Shown here: piece after piece, positions 54,274 to 60,597 of the stretch
How positions within the stretch are numbered: position 1 is the stretch's first letter
Layout: each line of letters starts with the position of its first letter
DNA from: Hymenobacter qilianensis
GTDB taxonomy: Bacteria > Bacteroidota > Bacteroidia > Cytophagales > Hymenobacteraceae
NCBI RefSeq assembly: GCF_014489555.1
Contig: NZ_CP060784.1
Span: 1,364,001-1,428,000, forward strand
DNA: 64,000 bases
Direction of reading: 5' to 3'
Made by a program: the position numbers and the translations under genes
The notes under the pieces: generated by a model
Told to the model about the DNA's origin: nothing
Database searches by the model: none
Seen by the model: the letters and a program-made list of their open reading frames with translations, nothing else

Positions 54274-55344
54274 TTAGGATACGCCTTCTTTCAGGCGCTC
54301 GGCGCTTTCCGCGATGCGCAATTGCTCTACGAAGTCGTCGATGTTGCCTTCCATTACGCTGGCCAGGTTGTACACCGTGTAGCCAATGCGGTGGTCCGTT
54401 ACGCGACCTTGTGGGTAGTTGTAGGTGCGAATCTTGTCGGAACGGTCGCCGCCTCCGATCATGCTTTTGCGCTGAGCGCCTTCGGCTTCGTTTTTCTTGG
54501 CCAGCTCTATTTCGTAAATGCGTGAGCGCAACACTTGCAAAGCTTTATCAAAGTTCTTGAGCTGCGACTTCTGATCTTGGCACTGAGCCACCAAGCCCGT
54601 GGGCAAGTGGGTCAGGCGCACGGCCGAGTAGGTCGTGTTTACAGATTGCCCCCCAGGACCCGATGACATGAACAGGTCCTTGCGCACATCGTTCATATCG
54701 ATTTCTACGTCCAGCTCCTCTGCTTCCGGCATTACCACAATAGAGGCAACAGAGGTATGAATGCGGCCCTGTGTTTCGGTGGCCGGCACGCGCTGCACGC
54801 GGTGCACGCCGCTCTCAAACTTGAGCTTGCCGTACACGTCCTCGCCTTTCACCGACAGAATAATTTCTTTGTAGCCGCCGCTGGTGCCTTCGGTGGCGTC
54901 AATCAGATCCATGCGCAAGTTTTGCTTTTCGGCGTAGCGCATGTACATACGCTGCAAGTCGCCGGCAAAGATGGCCGCCTCGTCGCCGCCGGCCCCGGCC
55001 CTGATTTCCATGATGACATCCTTGGAATCGTTGGGATCTTTGGGCAGCAGCAGGTCTTTGATTACGGTTTCGAGGCGCTCCTGCTCGGGCAGCAACTCAT
55101 CGAGCTCGGCCTTTGCCATCTCGCGGAAATCTTCGTCTTTTTCCGTAGATATAACGGCGCGCGCACCCTCAATATTCGAGAGCACCTCCTGGTATCTGCG
55201 ATACTCAGCTACAATGCGGCCAAGGTCTTTGTATTCTTTATTGAGGGATTTGTAGCGCTTCATGTCGCTCATCGCCTCGGGCTGCATTAGCTGCTCATTC
55301 ACGTCGTCGTAGCGTTGGCGAATGGCCTCCAGTTTTTCTAGCAT
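54274..55344 (-). CDS. prfA: Peptide chain release factor 1
   Basis: RF1 ends translation at UAA and UAG. The 356-residue protein has the GGQ catalytic loop (SSGPGGQSVNTTYSA, about residue 231) preceded by the DVRKDLFMSSG region, and an N-terminal coiled coil (EYRRYQEVLSNIEGARAV). TEGTSGGYKEIILSVKG is the anticodon-reading domain. GKLKFESGVHRVQRVPATET is the classic domain-2 strand. A G6C motif at 54648-54654 encodes the GGQ segment in frame. A matching -7 box stands upstream. Confidence 0.96.
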   Translation of the reverse strand: MLEKLEAIRQRYDDVNEQLMQPEAMSDMKRYKSLNKEYKDLGRIVAEYRRYQEVLSNIEGARAVISTEKDEDFREMAKAELDELLPEQERLETVIKDLLLPKDPNDSKDVIMEIRAGAGGDEAAIFAGDLQRMYMRYAEKQNLRMDLIDATEGTSGGYKEIILSVKGEDVYGKLKFESGVHRVQRVPATETQGRIHTSVASIVVMPEAEELDVEIDMNDVRKDLFMSSGPGGQSVNTTYSAVRLTHLPTGLVAQCQDQKSQLKNFDKALQVLRSRIYEIELAKKNEAEGAQRKSMIGGGDRSDKIRTYNYPQGRVTDHRIGYTVYNLASVMEGNIDDFVEQLRIAESAERLKEGVS

Positions 55345-55373
55345 CTTGCCTTCAGAGAATTATATTGGGAGTG

Positions 55374-55381
55374 CAAAGGTA
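55374..55381 (-). promoter_or_regulatory. Putative -7 promoter element of prfA (TACCTTTG)
   Basis: An exact TAnnTTTG match lies about 30 nt before the prfA start; here the leader would be normal in length. Confidence 0.55.
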
Positions 55382-55539
55382 CTGAAAACAAACAGGCCGC
55401 GCGCACCACAAGTTGCATTGCACTGCGAATGGAGCCGCGACAACAGTAGGTACAACCTGCTTCTTTTTCAATAATATAAAGCTCACGGGATATTATCCTT
55501 TCCAGAAAATGCCTACTTTACTGCTGTAAGTCTGCACCA

Positions 55540-55638
55540 ATGACCACACTTTCGAGTCCAAACGACGTATTTTCTGCTCTGGGGGGCTTTTTTCCCGCGC
55601 CCACTATTTGCTACACCACAGGTATTACAACCCGCTAG
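55540..55638 (+). CDS. thr leader peptide (32 aa, Thr/Ile-rich end)
   Basis: A short frame starts at ATG 55540 and stops at TAG 55636-55638. The last residues are TICYTTGITTR: five Thr and two Ile codons immediately before the stop, the same two amino acids that regulate the E. coli thr operon. The stop codon overlaps the first base of a stem that competes with a terminator before thrA. The middle of the peptide (ALGGFF) is encoded by a G6C motif at 55581-55587. Translation has not been demonstrated; the case rests on the codon cluster and its position. Confidence 0.6.
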   Translation: MTTLSSPNDVFSALGGFFPAPTICYTTGITTR

Positions 55639-55730
55639 ACGGGCTGCGCTACCTCTCTTTGCCTTGATGTTCGCAGCCCGTCGCCGGCAGCTTCCTGACC
55701 CGAAGCCAAGCCGGTCCCGACGGGCTTTTT
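55638..55730 (+). promoter_or_regulatory. Threonine/isoleucine attenuator upstream of thrA
   Basis: Segment 1 (GACGGGCTGCG, 55638-55648) is the perfect complement of segment 2 (CGCAGCCCGTC, 55672-55682). Segment 2 continues as AGCCCGTCG-CCGGC (55675-55688), which pairs with GCCGG..CGACGGGCT (55710-55726) and is followed by five T: a terminator. The 1:2 pairing would thus prevent the terminator. A ribosome finishing at the leader stop covers segment 1; one stalled at Thr/Ile codons leaves it free. Confidence 0.6.
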
Positions 55731-55752
55731 CGTGTCCTTTAGCTTCTGTCTT

Positions 55753-58199
55753 ATGCAGGTTCTCAAATTTGGAGGTACGTCGGTGGCCACGGCGGCCAAT
55801 CTTCAGCGCGTGGCGCAACTCGTCGAAACCGCCGCGCAGCACACGGCTACGGTGGTCGTGGTATCGGCGCTCGGCGGCACTACCGATGCGCTAATTGAAG
55901 CCGGACGCCTAGCTGCCGGAGGCTCGGCGCACTATCGCACGCAGTTGCAGCGCCTGGAAGACCGACACTTGGGAGTTGTGCGGGATCTGCTGCCAATTTC
56001 GGAGCAAAGCGCGGTGCTAAGTTTGGTCAAAACGCACTGCAATGAGCTGGATAGCATCTGCGATGGCATATTTGCGTTGGGTGAGCTGTCTGACCGCACA
56101 CTGGACCGGCTGATGAGCTTCGGCGAAATCTTGTCGTCGCGGCTGTTGGCGGCCTATCTCAAAGCGCAGGGCGTCGCGCACCTCTGGCACGACAGCCGCC
56201 AACTCATCCGCACCGATTCGCGCCACGGCTTCGCCACCGTGGACAGCGAGACGACCAACCAGCAGATTCAGGCATTTGTGGCGGCGCAGCCCTGTCAGAT
56301 CTATGTTGTGCCGGGCTTTATCGGCAGCGATGCGCAGGGCGTTACCACCACGCTGGGCCGTGGCGGCTCCGACTATACGGCCGCTATTTTTGCGGCCGCG
56401 CTAGCCGCGGAGCGCCTGGAGATATGGACGGATGTGAGCGGCATGATGACCGCCGACCCGCGCCTCGTAACGCTGGCCCGGCCTATCCCGCGCATCTCTT
56501 ATCAGGAGGCCATGGAGCTGTCGCACTTCGGGGCGAAGGTTTTGTATCCGCCTACGGTTCAGCCGGTAAGAAGCCAGGGCATCCCGCTCTGGATCAAGAA
56601 CACATTTGCCCCCAGGATGAAGGCACACTGGTTGAAGTGAATCCGCCGGCCAATAAGGACGTGGTTCGGGGCCTGTCGAGCATTGCCCAGCTGGCTTTGC
56701 TCAACCTGGAGGGCAGCGGCATGGTGGGCATTCCGGGTTTCTCGCGGCGGCTGTTCGGGGCGCTGGCTCAGCAGCGCATCAACGTAATTCTGATTACGCA
56801 AAGCTCCTCGGAACACTCTATCTGCGTGGCCGTCCGCGCCGCCGATGCCGAGCAGGCACAAAAGGCTGTAGATGAGGAGTTCACCACCGAAATCGCCACC
56901 GGCAAAGTAGAGCCCTTGCGCTGCGAAGACGACCTGGCTATTGTGGCGTTGGTGGGCGATAATATGCGCAATCACCCCGGCATCAGCGGCCGAATGTTTA
57001 GCGCGTTGGGCCAGAATGGCGTGAATATCCGGGCTATTGCGCAGGGCTCGTCGGAGCGGAATATCTCGGCCGTAATTAGGGCTGCTGATGTGCGCAAGGC
57101 CATTAACGTGCTGCACGAGGCCTTTTTCGAGGCTACGGCGAAGCAGGTCAACCTGTTTGTAGCGGGTGTAGGCAATGTGGGGGGCAAATTATTAGAGCAG
57201 CTGGCTCGCCAACAGGAATGGCTGCGCGAGAAGCTGCGGCTGAACTTGCGCGTGGTAGGGCTAGCTAATAGCCAGCGCTTTGCATTGACCGAGAACGGCG
57301 GTATTGCGCTCGACGGGTGGCAGGCGTCGCTGGAGCAAGGGCAGCCGCTTGATTTATCGGAGCTTGTCCGGCAACTGCACGAGCTGAATCTGCGCAATAC
57401 TGTTTTTGTGGATGTAACAGCCAGCGCCGACGTAGCTCAGATTTATGCTGCGCTGCTGGAGAAAAGCGTGGCGGTGGTAGCCTGCAATAAGGTGGCTTGC
57501 TCCTCAGACTATGCGAGTTACGCCCAGCTGAAAGAGTTAGCGCGGGAGTTCAATGCGGAGTTTTTGTTTGAAACCAATGTAGGCGCGGGCCTGCCCATCA
57601 TTGGCTCGCTCAACGACCTGCTGCGCAGCGGCGACGAGGTGCGGCGCATCGAAGCAGTGCTGTCTGGCACGCTCAACTTCGTTTTTAACCACTACGATGG
57701 CTCCGTTCCTTTCGCCGATGTGGTTCGCCAAGCGCAAGCCGAAGGCTACACCGAACCCGACCCGCGCCTCGACCTCAGCGGCACCGACGTAGCACGCAAA
57801 ATTCTGATCTTGGCCCGTGAAGCCGGTCAGAAAATGGAGCTGGCTGATATTCACAACGAATCCTTCCTGCCGGCCTCTTGCCTGGAAGGCGACGTGGAAG
57901 CGTTCTACCAGCAGCTGGCCGTGCACGAAGCCCATTTCCGTGGTTTGTATGATGCGGCAGCGGCCCAGGGCCAGCGCCTGAAGTTCGTGGCTCGCTACGC
58001 CGACGGGCAGGCCAGTGTGGGGCTCCAGGGCGTGGCGCCGGGCCACGATTTCTACGTGTTGCAGGGCAAAGACAACGCGGTGCTGTTCTTCACCAATCGG
58101 TATTCGGAGCAGCCGCTGGTAGTGAAAGGCGCCGGCGCTGGCGCCGATGTCACGGCCTCGGGCGTTTTCGCTGACATCATCCGGGCCGCCCGGGCATAG
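55753..58199 (+). CDS. thrA: Bifunctional aspartokinase / homoserine dehydrogenase (frame broken once)
   Basis: The first and third steps from aspartate to threonine/methionine. The N-terminal kinase has KFGGTSVAT (5-13), FGEILSSRLLAAYL, and VTTTLGRGGSDYTAAIFAAAL; ACT domains follow (GMVGIPGFSRRLFGAL, NIRAIAQGSSERNISAVI); the dehydrogenase has FVAGVGNVGGKLLEQL (about 469), NKVACSSDYASY and ETNVGAGLPIIGSLNDLL. The frames 55753-56612 and 56613-58199 join by one C in the five-C run at 56609-56613, giving NTFAPQDEGTLVEV and recreating TTTGCCCCCCAG. The restored length is about 815 residues, normal for ThrA. It heads the thrABC operon behind an attenuator. Confidence 0.95.
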
Positions 58200-58322: not shown

Positions 58323-59246
58323 ATGGCTGATTTTCTGACGCTGTATTCGCCGGCTACTGTTGCCAATATGGTGTGCGGGTTCGATGTTCTGGGCTTTGCC
58401 CTGGAAGCTCCTTACGACACCATGCACATGCGCCTCACCGATGAGCCGGGCGTGCAGATTGTGCACGAGGATGACTTTCATCTGCCCACCGAACCAGCGC
58501 GCAATGTGGCCGGGGCCGCTTTACTGGCTTTGCTGAAAGCCGCGCCAGCGGGCACGGGCTTCGAGGTGCGCATCAACAAAGCTATCCTGCCGGGCAGCGG
58601 AATTGGGAGTAGCGCGGCCAGCGCGGCGGGGGCTGTGGTAGGAGCCAACAAGCTGCTGGGGGGCTTTTTTTCGCCGGAAGAGCTGGTTCGGTTCGCTATG
58701 TTTGGGGAAGAAGTGGCCTCGGGCGCTCAGCACGCCGATAATATCGCGCCCGCCATTTACGGCGGCGTCACGCTTATTCGCTCCACCGACCCGCTGGATA
58801 TCGTGCCGCTGTCGGCGCCGCCGCTACACGCTACGGTCGTGCACCCGCAGATCGAGATACGCACCGCCGATGCCCGCCAGATTCTGAAGCAGGAGGTGCC
58901 GCTGAAGTCCGCCATCCGGCAGTGGGCCAATGTGGGCGGCTTAGTGGCCGGGCTCTTACAAGCAGATTATCAGCTGATTGGCCGCTCCCTGGAAGACGTT
59001 GTAGTAGAGCCAGTCCGCAGCATTCTCATTCCGGGGTTCGCGGCCGTGAAGTCGTGTAGTCTGGAAGCGGGTGCTTTGGGTGGGGGAATTTCGGGCTCTG
59101 GTCCGTCCATTTTTATGCTGAGCGAAACTGAGGCCACAGCCCAGGCCGTGGCCACTGCCATGCGGACGGTATACGAGAAGCTGGGCGTTGACTTTCGTAT
59201 CCACGTCAGTACCATTAACCCCGTCGGCGTGCGATTCAAGCACTAG
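58323..59246 (+). CDS. thrB: Homoserine kinase
   Basis: This GHMP kinase of 307 residues phosphorylates homoserine. It has the ATP-binding motif KAILPGSGIGSSAASAAGAV (about residues 82-101), the N-terminal SPATVANMVCGFDVLGFAL and the C-terminal GGGISGSGPSIFML glycine loop. ATG 58323 is preferred to the extension at 58290. Between thrA and thrC it fits the operon. A G6C motif with T-run (58658-58664) encodes LLGGFF in frame. Length equals family norms. Confidence 0.95.
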   Translation: MADFLTLYSPATVANMVCGFDVLGFALEAPYDTMHMRLTDEPGVQIVHEDDFHLPTEPARNVAGAALLALLKAAPAGTGFEVRINKAILPGSGIGSSAASAAGAVVGANKLLGGFFSPEELVRFAMFGEEVASGAQHADNIAPAIYGGVTLIRSTDPLDIVPLSAPPLHATVVHPQIEIRTADARQILKQEVPLKSAIRQWANVGGLVAGLLQADYQLIGRSLEDVVVEPVRSILIPGFAAVKSCSLEAGALGGGISGSGPSIFMLSETEATAQAVATAMRTVYEKLGVDFRIHVSTINPVGVRFKH

Positions 59247-59304
59247 CAAATTGCTTCAGAAGCGGTTTCAGCGCCGCTCACTCCCACCGATTTCTTCCTT
59301 CAGT

Positions 59305-60597
59305 ATGCGTTACTATAGCCTTAATAAGCAAGCGCCGGCCGTTGATTTTCAAACGGCCACCATTGCCGGCCAGGCACCGGATGGGGGGCTTTATTTCCCG
59401 GAACGGATACCAAAGTTCTCCCCCAATCTGCTCCATAATCTCAGCACCATGCCGCGGGCGGAAGTGGCCTTCGAGGTTATCCGGCCCTACGTGGGCAATA
59501 CGATTCCGGAAGATGTGCTGCAAAAAATCTGCGCAGAAACGGTGGATTTTGAGTTTCCGCTGGTGCCCGTAACCGAGCGAATTGCCGCGCTGGAGCTGTT
59601 TCATGGCCCTACGCTGGCGTTTAAGGATGTGGGCGCCCGGTTTATGAGCCGCTGCCTGGGCTACTTTTCGCGGCAGCAAAAAGAGCCCGTCACGGTGCTG
59701 GTGGCAACCTCCGGTGACACCGGTGGGGCCGTAGCCGACGGATTTCTGGGCGTAGAAGGCGTGGAAGTCGTTATTCTGTATCCGTCGGGCAAAGTAAGTC
59801 CGTTGCAGGAACTGCAGCTGACCACCCTAGGCCAGAACATTACGGCGCTGGAAGTACGCGGCAACTTCGACGATTGCCAGCGTTTGGTGAAGCAGGCTTT
59901 CCTCGATCCGCACATAGCGGCGCACCGGCAGCTTACCTCTGCCAATTCCATCAATGTGGCCCGCTGGCTGCCTCAGCAGTTTTATTACTGCTACGCCCTG
60001 CAACAATGGACGCAAAAAAGCCCCCCAGTGGTAGCGGTGCCTAGCGGCAACTTCGGCAACATCTGCGCCGGCCTGCTCGCCCACGCGTCGGGGCTGCCCA
60101 TCGGGCACTTTGTGGCGGCCTGCAATGCCAACTCAGCCGTAGCCGACTATCTGCGCACGGGCACGTTTAGCGCCCGCACGGCCGTCGTTACGCTTTCTAA
60201 TGCCATGGACGTAGGCAACCCCAGCAACTTCGGCCGCATTCTGGAGTTGTTTGGGCAAAGCCATTCTGGTGTCAGCCAGCTCGTGAGTGGGGCTATTATT
60301 TCCGACCAGCAGACGAAGGAAACCATCCGGCGCGTGCATCAGGCAACAGGCTATCTGCTGGATCCCCACGGCGCGGTGGCGTTCAAGGCCCTGGAAGATT
60401 ATCTGGCTGACCATCCTACCGATCAGGGCATTTTTCTGGAAACCGCGCACCCGGTAAAGTTTCCGGAAGTGGTAGAGCCCGTAATCGGGCGGATGGTGCC
60501 GGTGCCGGAGGCCGTGCAGGGCTTGCTGAGCCGAACCAAGCACAGCATTCTTCTGGAGCCTGAGTACGCTGCCTTGCAGGAGTTTTTGCTTAGATAA
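59305..60597 (+). CDS. thrC: Threonine synthase
   Basis: PLP-dependent enzyme turning O-phosphohomoserine into threonine, 430 residues. The PLP lysine is in LAFKDVGARFM, and the phosphate-loop and substrate motifs are ATSGDTGGAVADGF and VAVPSGNFGNICAG; NAMDVGNPSNFGRI and YLLDPHGAVAF complete the set. ATG 59305 (MRYYSLNKQAP) starts the conserved domain; the in-frame extension to 59188 overlaps thrB. It is the last gene of thrABC. G6C motifs at 59383 and 60020 are in frame. Confidence 0.95.
   Translation: MRYYSLNKQAPAVDFQTATIAGQAPDGGLYFPERIPKFSPNLLHNLSTMPRAEVAFEVIRPYVGNTIPEDVLQKICAETVDFEFPLVPVTERIAALELFHGPTLAFKDVGARFMSRCLGYFSRQQKEPVTVLVATSGDTGGAVADGFLGVEGVEVVILYPSGKVSPLQELQLTTLGQNITALEVRGNFDDCQRLVKQAFLDPHIAAHRQLTSANSINVARWLPQQFYYCYALQQWTQKSPPVVAVPSGNFGNICAGLLAHASGLPIGHFVAACNANSAVADYLRTGTFSARTAVVTLSNAMDVGNPSNFGRILELFGQSHSGVSQLVSGAIISDQQTKETIRRVHQATGYLLDPHGAVAFKALEDYLADHPTDQGIFLETAHPVKFPEVVEPVIGRMVPVPEAVQGLLSRTKHSILLEPEYAALQEFLLR

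Follow-up and report, generated by a model that had tools for sequence, protein, structure and literature searches.

Directly upstream of thrABC, Hymenobacter qilianensis carries a Thr/Ile-rich mini-ORF followed by two mutually exclusive RNA hairpins, and judged by its sequence the most convincing interpretation of this arrangement is an attenuator through which a translating ribosome controls transcription of the threonine operon, which we consider very probable. The features seen are those of an attenuator: an open frame of cognate codons, a cognate operon, an antiterminator that excludes a U-tailed terminator, and a stop codon placed beside the first pairing segment. The principle of attenuation is known and its presence in the phylum has been suggested before; the Hymenobacter leader is a new, well-supported case. 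The coordinates given below and in Table 1 refer to the window, i.e., the whole stretch of 64,000 nucleotides that was analyzed.

Table 1. Features of the thr leader and its neighbors in the window
Feature	Position	Strand	Remarks
prfA (release factor 1)	54274–55344	−	Divergent neighbor of the leader
Predicted −7 promoter box, Bacteroidota type, TACTTTAC	55514–55521	+	TA..TT columns unchanged in all 47 aligned leaders
Leader ORF, 32 codons and TAG	55540–55638	+	Thr/Ile-rich tail TICYTTGITTR; read directly in the window
In-ORF hairpin (P)	55582–55602	+	Weak in the window, covarying in relatives; coordinates from the fold
Stop-codon hairpin (0:1), CCCG (55631–55634) with CGGG (55640–55643)	55631–55643	+	Stop in the loop; candidate protector or pause hairpin
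Segment 1, antiterminator 5′ arm, GACGGGCTGCG	55638–55648	+	5′ end is the G of the TAG stop
Segment 2, antiterminator 3′ arm and terminator 5′ arm	55672–55683	+	Antiterminator part CGCAGCCCGTC at 55672–55682
Terminator apical stems, CCGGC/GCCGG and GCTTC/GAAGC	55684–55714	+	Isolated folds
Segment 3, CGACGGGCT, and U-tract	55718–55730	+	Predicted intrinsic terminator; five T at 55726–55730
thrA (bifunctional aspartokinase/homoserine dehydrogenase)	55753–58199	+	Two frames here, 55753–56640 and 56424–58199
thrB (homoserine kinase)	58323–59246	+	NF002288, 372.7 bits (cut-off 194)
thrC (threonine synthase)	59302–60597	+	TIGR00260, 273.8 bits (cut-off 167.1)

The leader lies in a 407-nt intergenic gap between prfA, which is encoded on the minus strand, and the thrA ATG at 55753. 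The initial annotation had placed it before thrABC, and NCBIfam profile matches confirmed that the downstream genes are thrA, thrB, and thrC, i.e., the operon making the cognate amino acid. The two thrA pieces matched NF006959 over positions 1 to 290 and 287 to 813 of 819, each alone scoring below the cut-off of 726 bits, and the best named match of the ThrA fragment was that of H. roseosalivarius DSM 11622 (88% identical). The two frames overlap at 56424–56640, and nearly all listed relatives have a single open frame of ~765 to 952 codons. As hisG of the same assembly is likewise split, assembly indels are likelier in thrA than a real break.

The leader frame starts with the ATG at 55540, ends with the TAG at 55636–55638, and encodes the peptide MTTLSSPNDVFSALGGFFPAPTICYTTGITTR, with five Thr and two Ile codons among the last 11; its length, tail, and codon count agree with the first description of this locus. 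Bacteroidota rarely use Shine-Dalgarno sequences. The transcription start is predicted to lie a few bases 3′ of the −7-like box, for which we take TAnnTTTG to be the Bacteroidota consensus; the promoter class, like the start, is a prediction from this motif. A regular-expression search located a −7-like box 25 to 35 nt 5′ of the ATG in all 46 Hymenobacter leaders with an in-frame start (see below), in six of them on a different neighboring match. The leader of the window ends in UAG, which is not read by release factor 2, and the divergent neighbor encodes release factor 1. This pairing may be due to chance, because UAA or UGA is the stop in other Hymenobacter leaders.

Segments 1 and 2 are complementary over 11 bases (55638–55648 with 55672–55682) without a mismatch, so that, as originally noted, the stop codon abuts a segment that pairs perfectly with the next one. 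The claim that segment 2 also pairs with segment 3 to form a T-tailed terminator was borne out as well: the 5′ pairing stretch of the terminator, AGCCCGTCG (55675–55683), overlaps segment 2 and is complementary to CGACGGGCT at 55718–55726. When folded alone, the antiterminator reached −21.0 kcal/mol (z −4.24) and the terminator −32.4 kcal/mol (z −4.19), and none of 200 shuffles was as good in either case. The in-ORF hairpin of the window (−9.4) was without advantage over shuffles (119/200). The full-length fold preferred the antiterminator together with the apical stem (−39.5), and kinetics must therefore decide between the two structures.

None of 2,000 dinucleotide shuffles of the 407-nt gap gave a comparable Thr/Ile leader, defined as an ATG-started ORF of 10 to 50 codons with at least seven Thr or Ile among the last 11, and a comparable three-segment arrangement was found anywhere in 3 of 300 shuffles. 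A generic terminator scan of 54800–56200 recovered the 3′ hairpin but no excess of terminators (2 found, 2.0 expected from shuffles); it is therefore the comparison with relatives, not the single sequence, that carries the case. A 35-nt leader match elsewhere in the genome (C1:3124599–3124633) was taken as chance, and no leader was seen there on reading.

Within Hymenobacter, 120 genomes including that of the window were searched, of which 102 encode a close bifunctional ThrA and 18 distant aspartokinases only. After omission of two loci near a contig edge, 100 thrA upstream regions, again including that of the window, were compared. The initial annotation had staked its reading on conservation of the Thr/Ile codons in relatives, and the codon cluster is indeed kept: a leader, i.e., an open frame with at least four Thr in its last 14 codons, was present in 47 of the 100 regions. 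Among the 50 best ThrA matches all but L066 to L068 have it (47/50), as against none of the other 50, and the 53 regions without a leader are thus L066 to L068 and L074 to L123. The leader tracks ThrA similarity, with one apparent loss (L066 to L068) in the nearer half; relatedness here is the rank by ThrA similarity, and most regions include only ~100 nt of thrA. A DNA match was obtained for 20 relatives, and for 14 of these it starts at query base 119 to 128, where the codon tail lies. Sequence model R1 with stricter filters had matches in 13 of 291 genomes from the order, all of them Hymenobacter (1 of 115 genera).

The conservation is specific for the reading frame: averaged over the 47 leaders, Thr plus Ile make up 7.43 of the last 14 codons in frame, compared to 0.15 in either other frame. 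Counted from the stop, position −2 is Thr in 47/47 leaders, position −3 Thr or Ile in 47/47, and position −4 in 44/47. Thr is encoded by various synonymous codons at positions −4, −6, −7, and −9, whereas position −2 is always ACC and position −3 is ACA in 41 of 42 cases of Thr; RNA pairing may also constrain the choice of Thr codons at these last two positions. An in-frame ATG is located 27 to 32 codons 5′ of the stop in 46 of the 47 leaders, and the ATG is invariant in the 47-row alignment. The distance from the end of the stop codon to the GGG of segment 1 is 1 to 3 nt in all 47. In a close relative, L004 (genome G061), a G-run of the leader is one base shorter than in the window and the Thr tail is not in the reading frame of the conserved ATG, which may reflect a real change or an assembly error.

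These data bear on one alternative, in which a simple intrinsic terminator or a structured 5′ leader happens to contain a small ORF and does not sense threonine. That terminator-like hairpins are as frequent in shuffles as in the single window and that translation of the ORF is a prediction from sequence are both compatible with it. We nevertheless regard it as improbable, given that no shuffle of the gap yielded such a leader and that Thr and Ile are confined to one frame in 47 leaders; moreover, as prfA is divergent, there is no neighboring plus-strand gene 5′ of the leader whose transcription the terminator could end.

The antiterminator and the terminator hairpin, each folded separately from stretches cut out by alignment columns, formed in all 47 leaders, although some of their T-runs are short or contain other bases (e.g., L012 to L014, L019, and L072). 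A loose scan for U-tailed hairpins passed 47/47 leaders but also 32/47 of their shuffles and adds little in DNA so rich in G+C. For the antiterminator pairing 1:2, 86.9% of the cells of alignment A1 are paired, and 19 cells are doubly changed, compared to 5.8 in shuffles (0/500 as high). The numbers of covarying pairs (4 versus 2.9, 96/500) and of pair types (9 versus 8.3, 213/500) in 1:2 were not above those of shuffles, and the internal position 47:97 is unpaired in 19/47. Sliding the pairing by −2 gave 18 doubly changed cells, but only 49.3% of the cells were paired in this register versus 86.9% in the proposed one.

For the terminator pairing 2:3 the column-based covariation test gave nothing, with a core that is nearly invariant and an apical part that is misaligned. 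We therefore used an arm-swap test, in which each arm is combined with its own partner and with the partners of other genomes, for 15 representatives sharing <80% identity. The own partner was better in 15/15 for 1:2 and in 15/15 for 2:3 (0/2,000 permutations each), and for the whole terminator hairpin the own combination reached −31.79 versus −23.77 for the cross combinations (15/15). The initial annotation had named compensatory changes as a check, and both stems keep their pairing through sequence changes. The in-ORF hairpin gave a mean z of −1.47 in single folds of relatives (z ≤ −2 in 14/47), and its own arms were better in 14/15 representatives (−13.67 versus −9.40, 0/2,000 permutations). 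In the case of the stop-codon hairpin 0:1, which comprises 4 to 5 pairs with the stop codon inside the loop, 91.9% of the cells are paired; there is only one covarying pair (27 CG, 8 GC, 12 unpaired), and the arm-swap test was weak for the representatives (10/15, 88/2,000) and clearer over all rows (32/47, 0/2,000). The three-segment design proposed at the outset therefore holds insofar as segments 1, 2, and 3 are kept in 47/47 leaders; the anatomy is richer than proposed, with an in-ORF hairpin and a stop-codon hairpin of weak covariation.

A further 100 thrA upstream regions were analyzed: 20 belong to family members outside Hymenobacter, and of the remaining 80, 15 are from Hymenobacter and 65 are not. 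H. roseosalivarius DSM 11622 (L157) and H. fodinae (L163) are examples of named strains or species with the element. At least six Thr plus Ile in 14 codons after an ATG were found in 48 of them and in none of the 100 reverse strands; the 48 comprise 11 from Hymenobacter, 13/20 from other genera of the family, and 24/65 from beyond the family (37/85 outside the genus). The 13 regions from the family (L144 to L156) have Thr/Ile leaders 5′ of thrA, e.g., TTGIITITGTTGYCTWG, and all of them contain a long U-tailed hairpin that is unrelated in sequence to that of the window; in L137 to L143 the same scan revealed no Thr/Ile leader 5′ of thrA.

The 65 non-Hymenobacter loci, mostly from Chitinophagaceae and further Bacteroidota, revealed a second type of leader. 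A test requiring at least four Thr/Ile in 10 codons and a stop-codon hairpin of at least five Watson-Crick pairs was passed by 56 of the 100 regions (L141 and L150 probably by chance) and by 2 of the 100 reverse strands. Of the 65 loci, 46 combine a Thr/Ile tail with a stop-codon hairpin, and together with three from the leader scan this gives 49/65 loci with such thr leaders (within L168 to L236). They consist of the codon run, a stop codon in or beside a hairpin (P1), the box CATAT[TC], which begins ~17 to 21 nt from the stop's first base, and then GGG. CATAT[TC] often also occurs inside the thr leader, as His-Ile codons 60 to 97 nt 5′ of the stop.

Leaders of this type also occur in front of another operon. 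His-rich frames, with no start codon required, were found 5′ of hisG in 12/12 Hymenobacter loci (L237 to L248) and in 0/12 reverse strands; CATAT[TC] is present in nine of the 12, and in the same nine a stop hairpin was recognized by eye. Such hisG leaders, e.g., HHHHHGHHSSF, extend to genomes that lack the thr leader (G048, G082, and G099, for example). No Ile/Val/Leu-rich frame was found 5′ of ilvC in eight loci, a result of little weight since other genes probably precede ilvC in its operon. When 49 thr and four his leaders were combined, the own arm of the stop hairpin was better in 34/35 representatives (0/2,000 permutations). Within the stretch tested, CATAT follows the stop in 49 of these 53 leaders and GGG follows CATAT in 48, compared to CATAT after 560 of 25,221 stop triplets of any kind in the same loci (2.2%). 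Because the stop-hairpin test had served to gather 46 of the 49 thr leaders, their pairing as such does not count as independent evidence; the covariation and the CATAT box do. The pattern CATATYRNCCN{1,5}GGGC had matches in 31/31 genomes of the genus, in most of them above a backward control. As a leader marker by itself it was rejected: of eight stretches read, seven resembled coding sequence or its opposite strand and one was a his leader found before, showing that the motif alone is not specific.

The second leader type is relevant to another explanation for the window, according to which the leader and its stop-codon hairpin affect translation, the stability of the mRNA, or pausing of the polymerase (perhaps together with Rho), with termination by 2:3 playing a minor part, as it may in those leaders of related families that lack an evident terminator. 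It draws on the fact that thr leaders of the Chitinophagaceae type and the majority of his leaders in Hymenobacter have a stop-codon hairpin in common, and that U-tailed hairpins are about equally rare in the 49 CATAT-type thr leaders (8/49, best candidate L190) and in their shuffles (15/147). In the window-type leaders, however, a terminator preceding a T-run and a competing antiterminator fold were found in 47/47, and both pairings are kept under sequence change, so that we give this explanation little credence. As a tentative possibility, the attenuator of the window may derive from a phylum-wide class of CATAT leaders, its clade having a true intrinsic terminator in place of the absent box, and members of the class may act by ribosome-gated pausing. 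Given the spacing, the active site of the polymerase would be positioned at the box or close to it when P1 has just emerged from the enzyme, and a ribosome occupying the last codons would keep P1 from forming and thereby cancel the pause or a Rho-type stop. Lacking an evident terminator, the CATAT type is less explained and a more novel lead than the attenuator of the window.

Direct sensing of threonine or uncharged tRNA by a riboswitch or a T-box-like RNA, with an incidental ORF, would also be consistent with a structured, U-tailed switch 5′ of a biosynthetic operon, but appears very unlikely in view of the Rfam searches and of the reading frame of cognate codons being the best-kept feature. 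A search of the whole window returned nothing at gathering score, and with the limit relaxed to E = 10, 55440–55780 gave no more than two matches, both weak and unrelated; Thr_leader, which is presumably the family of the E. coli thrL attenuator, was not among them. Searches of 11 related loci and, by E-value threshold, of two leader stretches gave no convincing match. That the ORF encodes a functional small protein is most improbable, since despite the ATG kept in frame in 46/47 leaders the clades have the Thr/Ile tail in common and differ in their N-terminal parts, and the peptide had no NCBIfam match.

Attenuation by a translating ribosome thus remains the preferred reading of the window, and the following course of events can be proposed, in which we infer translation, the ribosome footprint, termination, and the response to threonine and isoleucine. 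The promoter just upstream would start a short leader mRNA, and a ribosome would follow RNA polymerase, translating the 32 codons of the leader. A probable pause site for RNA polymerase is the in-ORF hairpin, which would synchronize ribosome and polymerase. When charged threonyl- or isoleucyl-tRNA is scarce, the ribosome would stall at the Thr/Ile codons 5′ of segment 1; segment 1 could then pair with the newly made segment 2, the 2:3 terminator would not form, and thrABC would be transcribed. When threonine is plentiful, the ribosome would reach the stop codon and cover segment 1, allowing 2:3 to pair, and transcription would end at the U-tract. According to a passage in PMC4833913, the ribosome footprint extends up to 12 nt 3′ of the stop codon. 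The stop-codon hairpin 0:1, on its weak covariation, may serve as a protector that favors termination when the leader is not translated.

In a comparison with the E. coli thrL attenuator, both systems have a Thr/Ile-rich leader peptide, the same operon product, and an antiterminator exclusive with a U-tailed terminator. They differ in that the Hymenobacter leader has another peptide and other stems and no Rfam match, in agreement with the initial view that the two are unrelated in sequence; on the Hymenobacter side there are also an in-ORF hairpin in relatives and a stop-codon hairpin of 4 to 5 bp in the protector position. In the trp attenuator, the 1:2 hairpin 5′ of the antiterminator serves as protector and pause hairpin. 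The Thr/Ile leaders of other genera share with the window a run of Thr/Ile codons in a short frame 5′ of thrA; they differ in having a U-tailed hairpin of other sequence (L144 to L156) or no consistent U-tailed terminator (the 49 CATAT-type leaders).

Leader-peptide attenuation is textbook knowledge in Proteobacteria and Actinobacteria. Before a case in Firmicutes was described, no leader-peptide system had been shown outside these two phyla to the knowledge of the authors of that report (PMC2965389). In Bacteroidota, strong clues for leader peptide attenuation 5′ of amino acid operons were reported for Flavobacterium psychrophilum (PMC9723704); these leaders are of another class, and the portion of that article consulted names no thr operon. 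Small ORFs resembling leader peptides were described in B. thetaiotaomicron (PMC7366714), attenuation 5′ of hisG is treated in general terms in PMC8305728, and PMC2864571 lists the Bacteroid-trp motif RF01692 as a candidate cis-regulatory RNA of Bacteroidota. The RF01692 covariance model had no match in the window or in the related leaders scanned. The context of this motif is trp. Literature searches by title and abstract listed nothing on a thr leader in Bacteroidota or on leader peptides in Hymenobacter; earlier predictions may exist (Lopatovskaya 2010, Lyubetsky 2007).

The comparison has exposed a second type of leader without an evident terminator, and the leader of the window offers a reporter of threonyl-tRNA charging. 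An independently built thr attenuator, together with the Thr/Ile and His leaders found in Bacteroidota, would mean that in these bacteria RNA polymerase and the leading ribosome are coupled tightly enough for attenuation.
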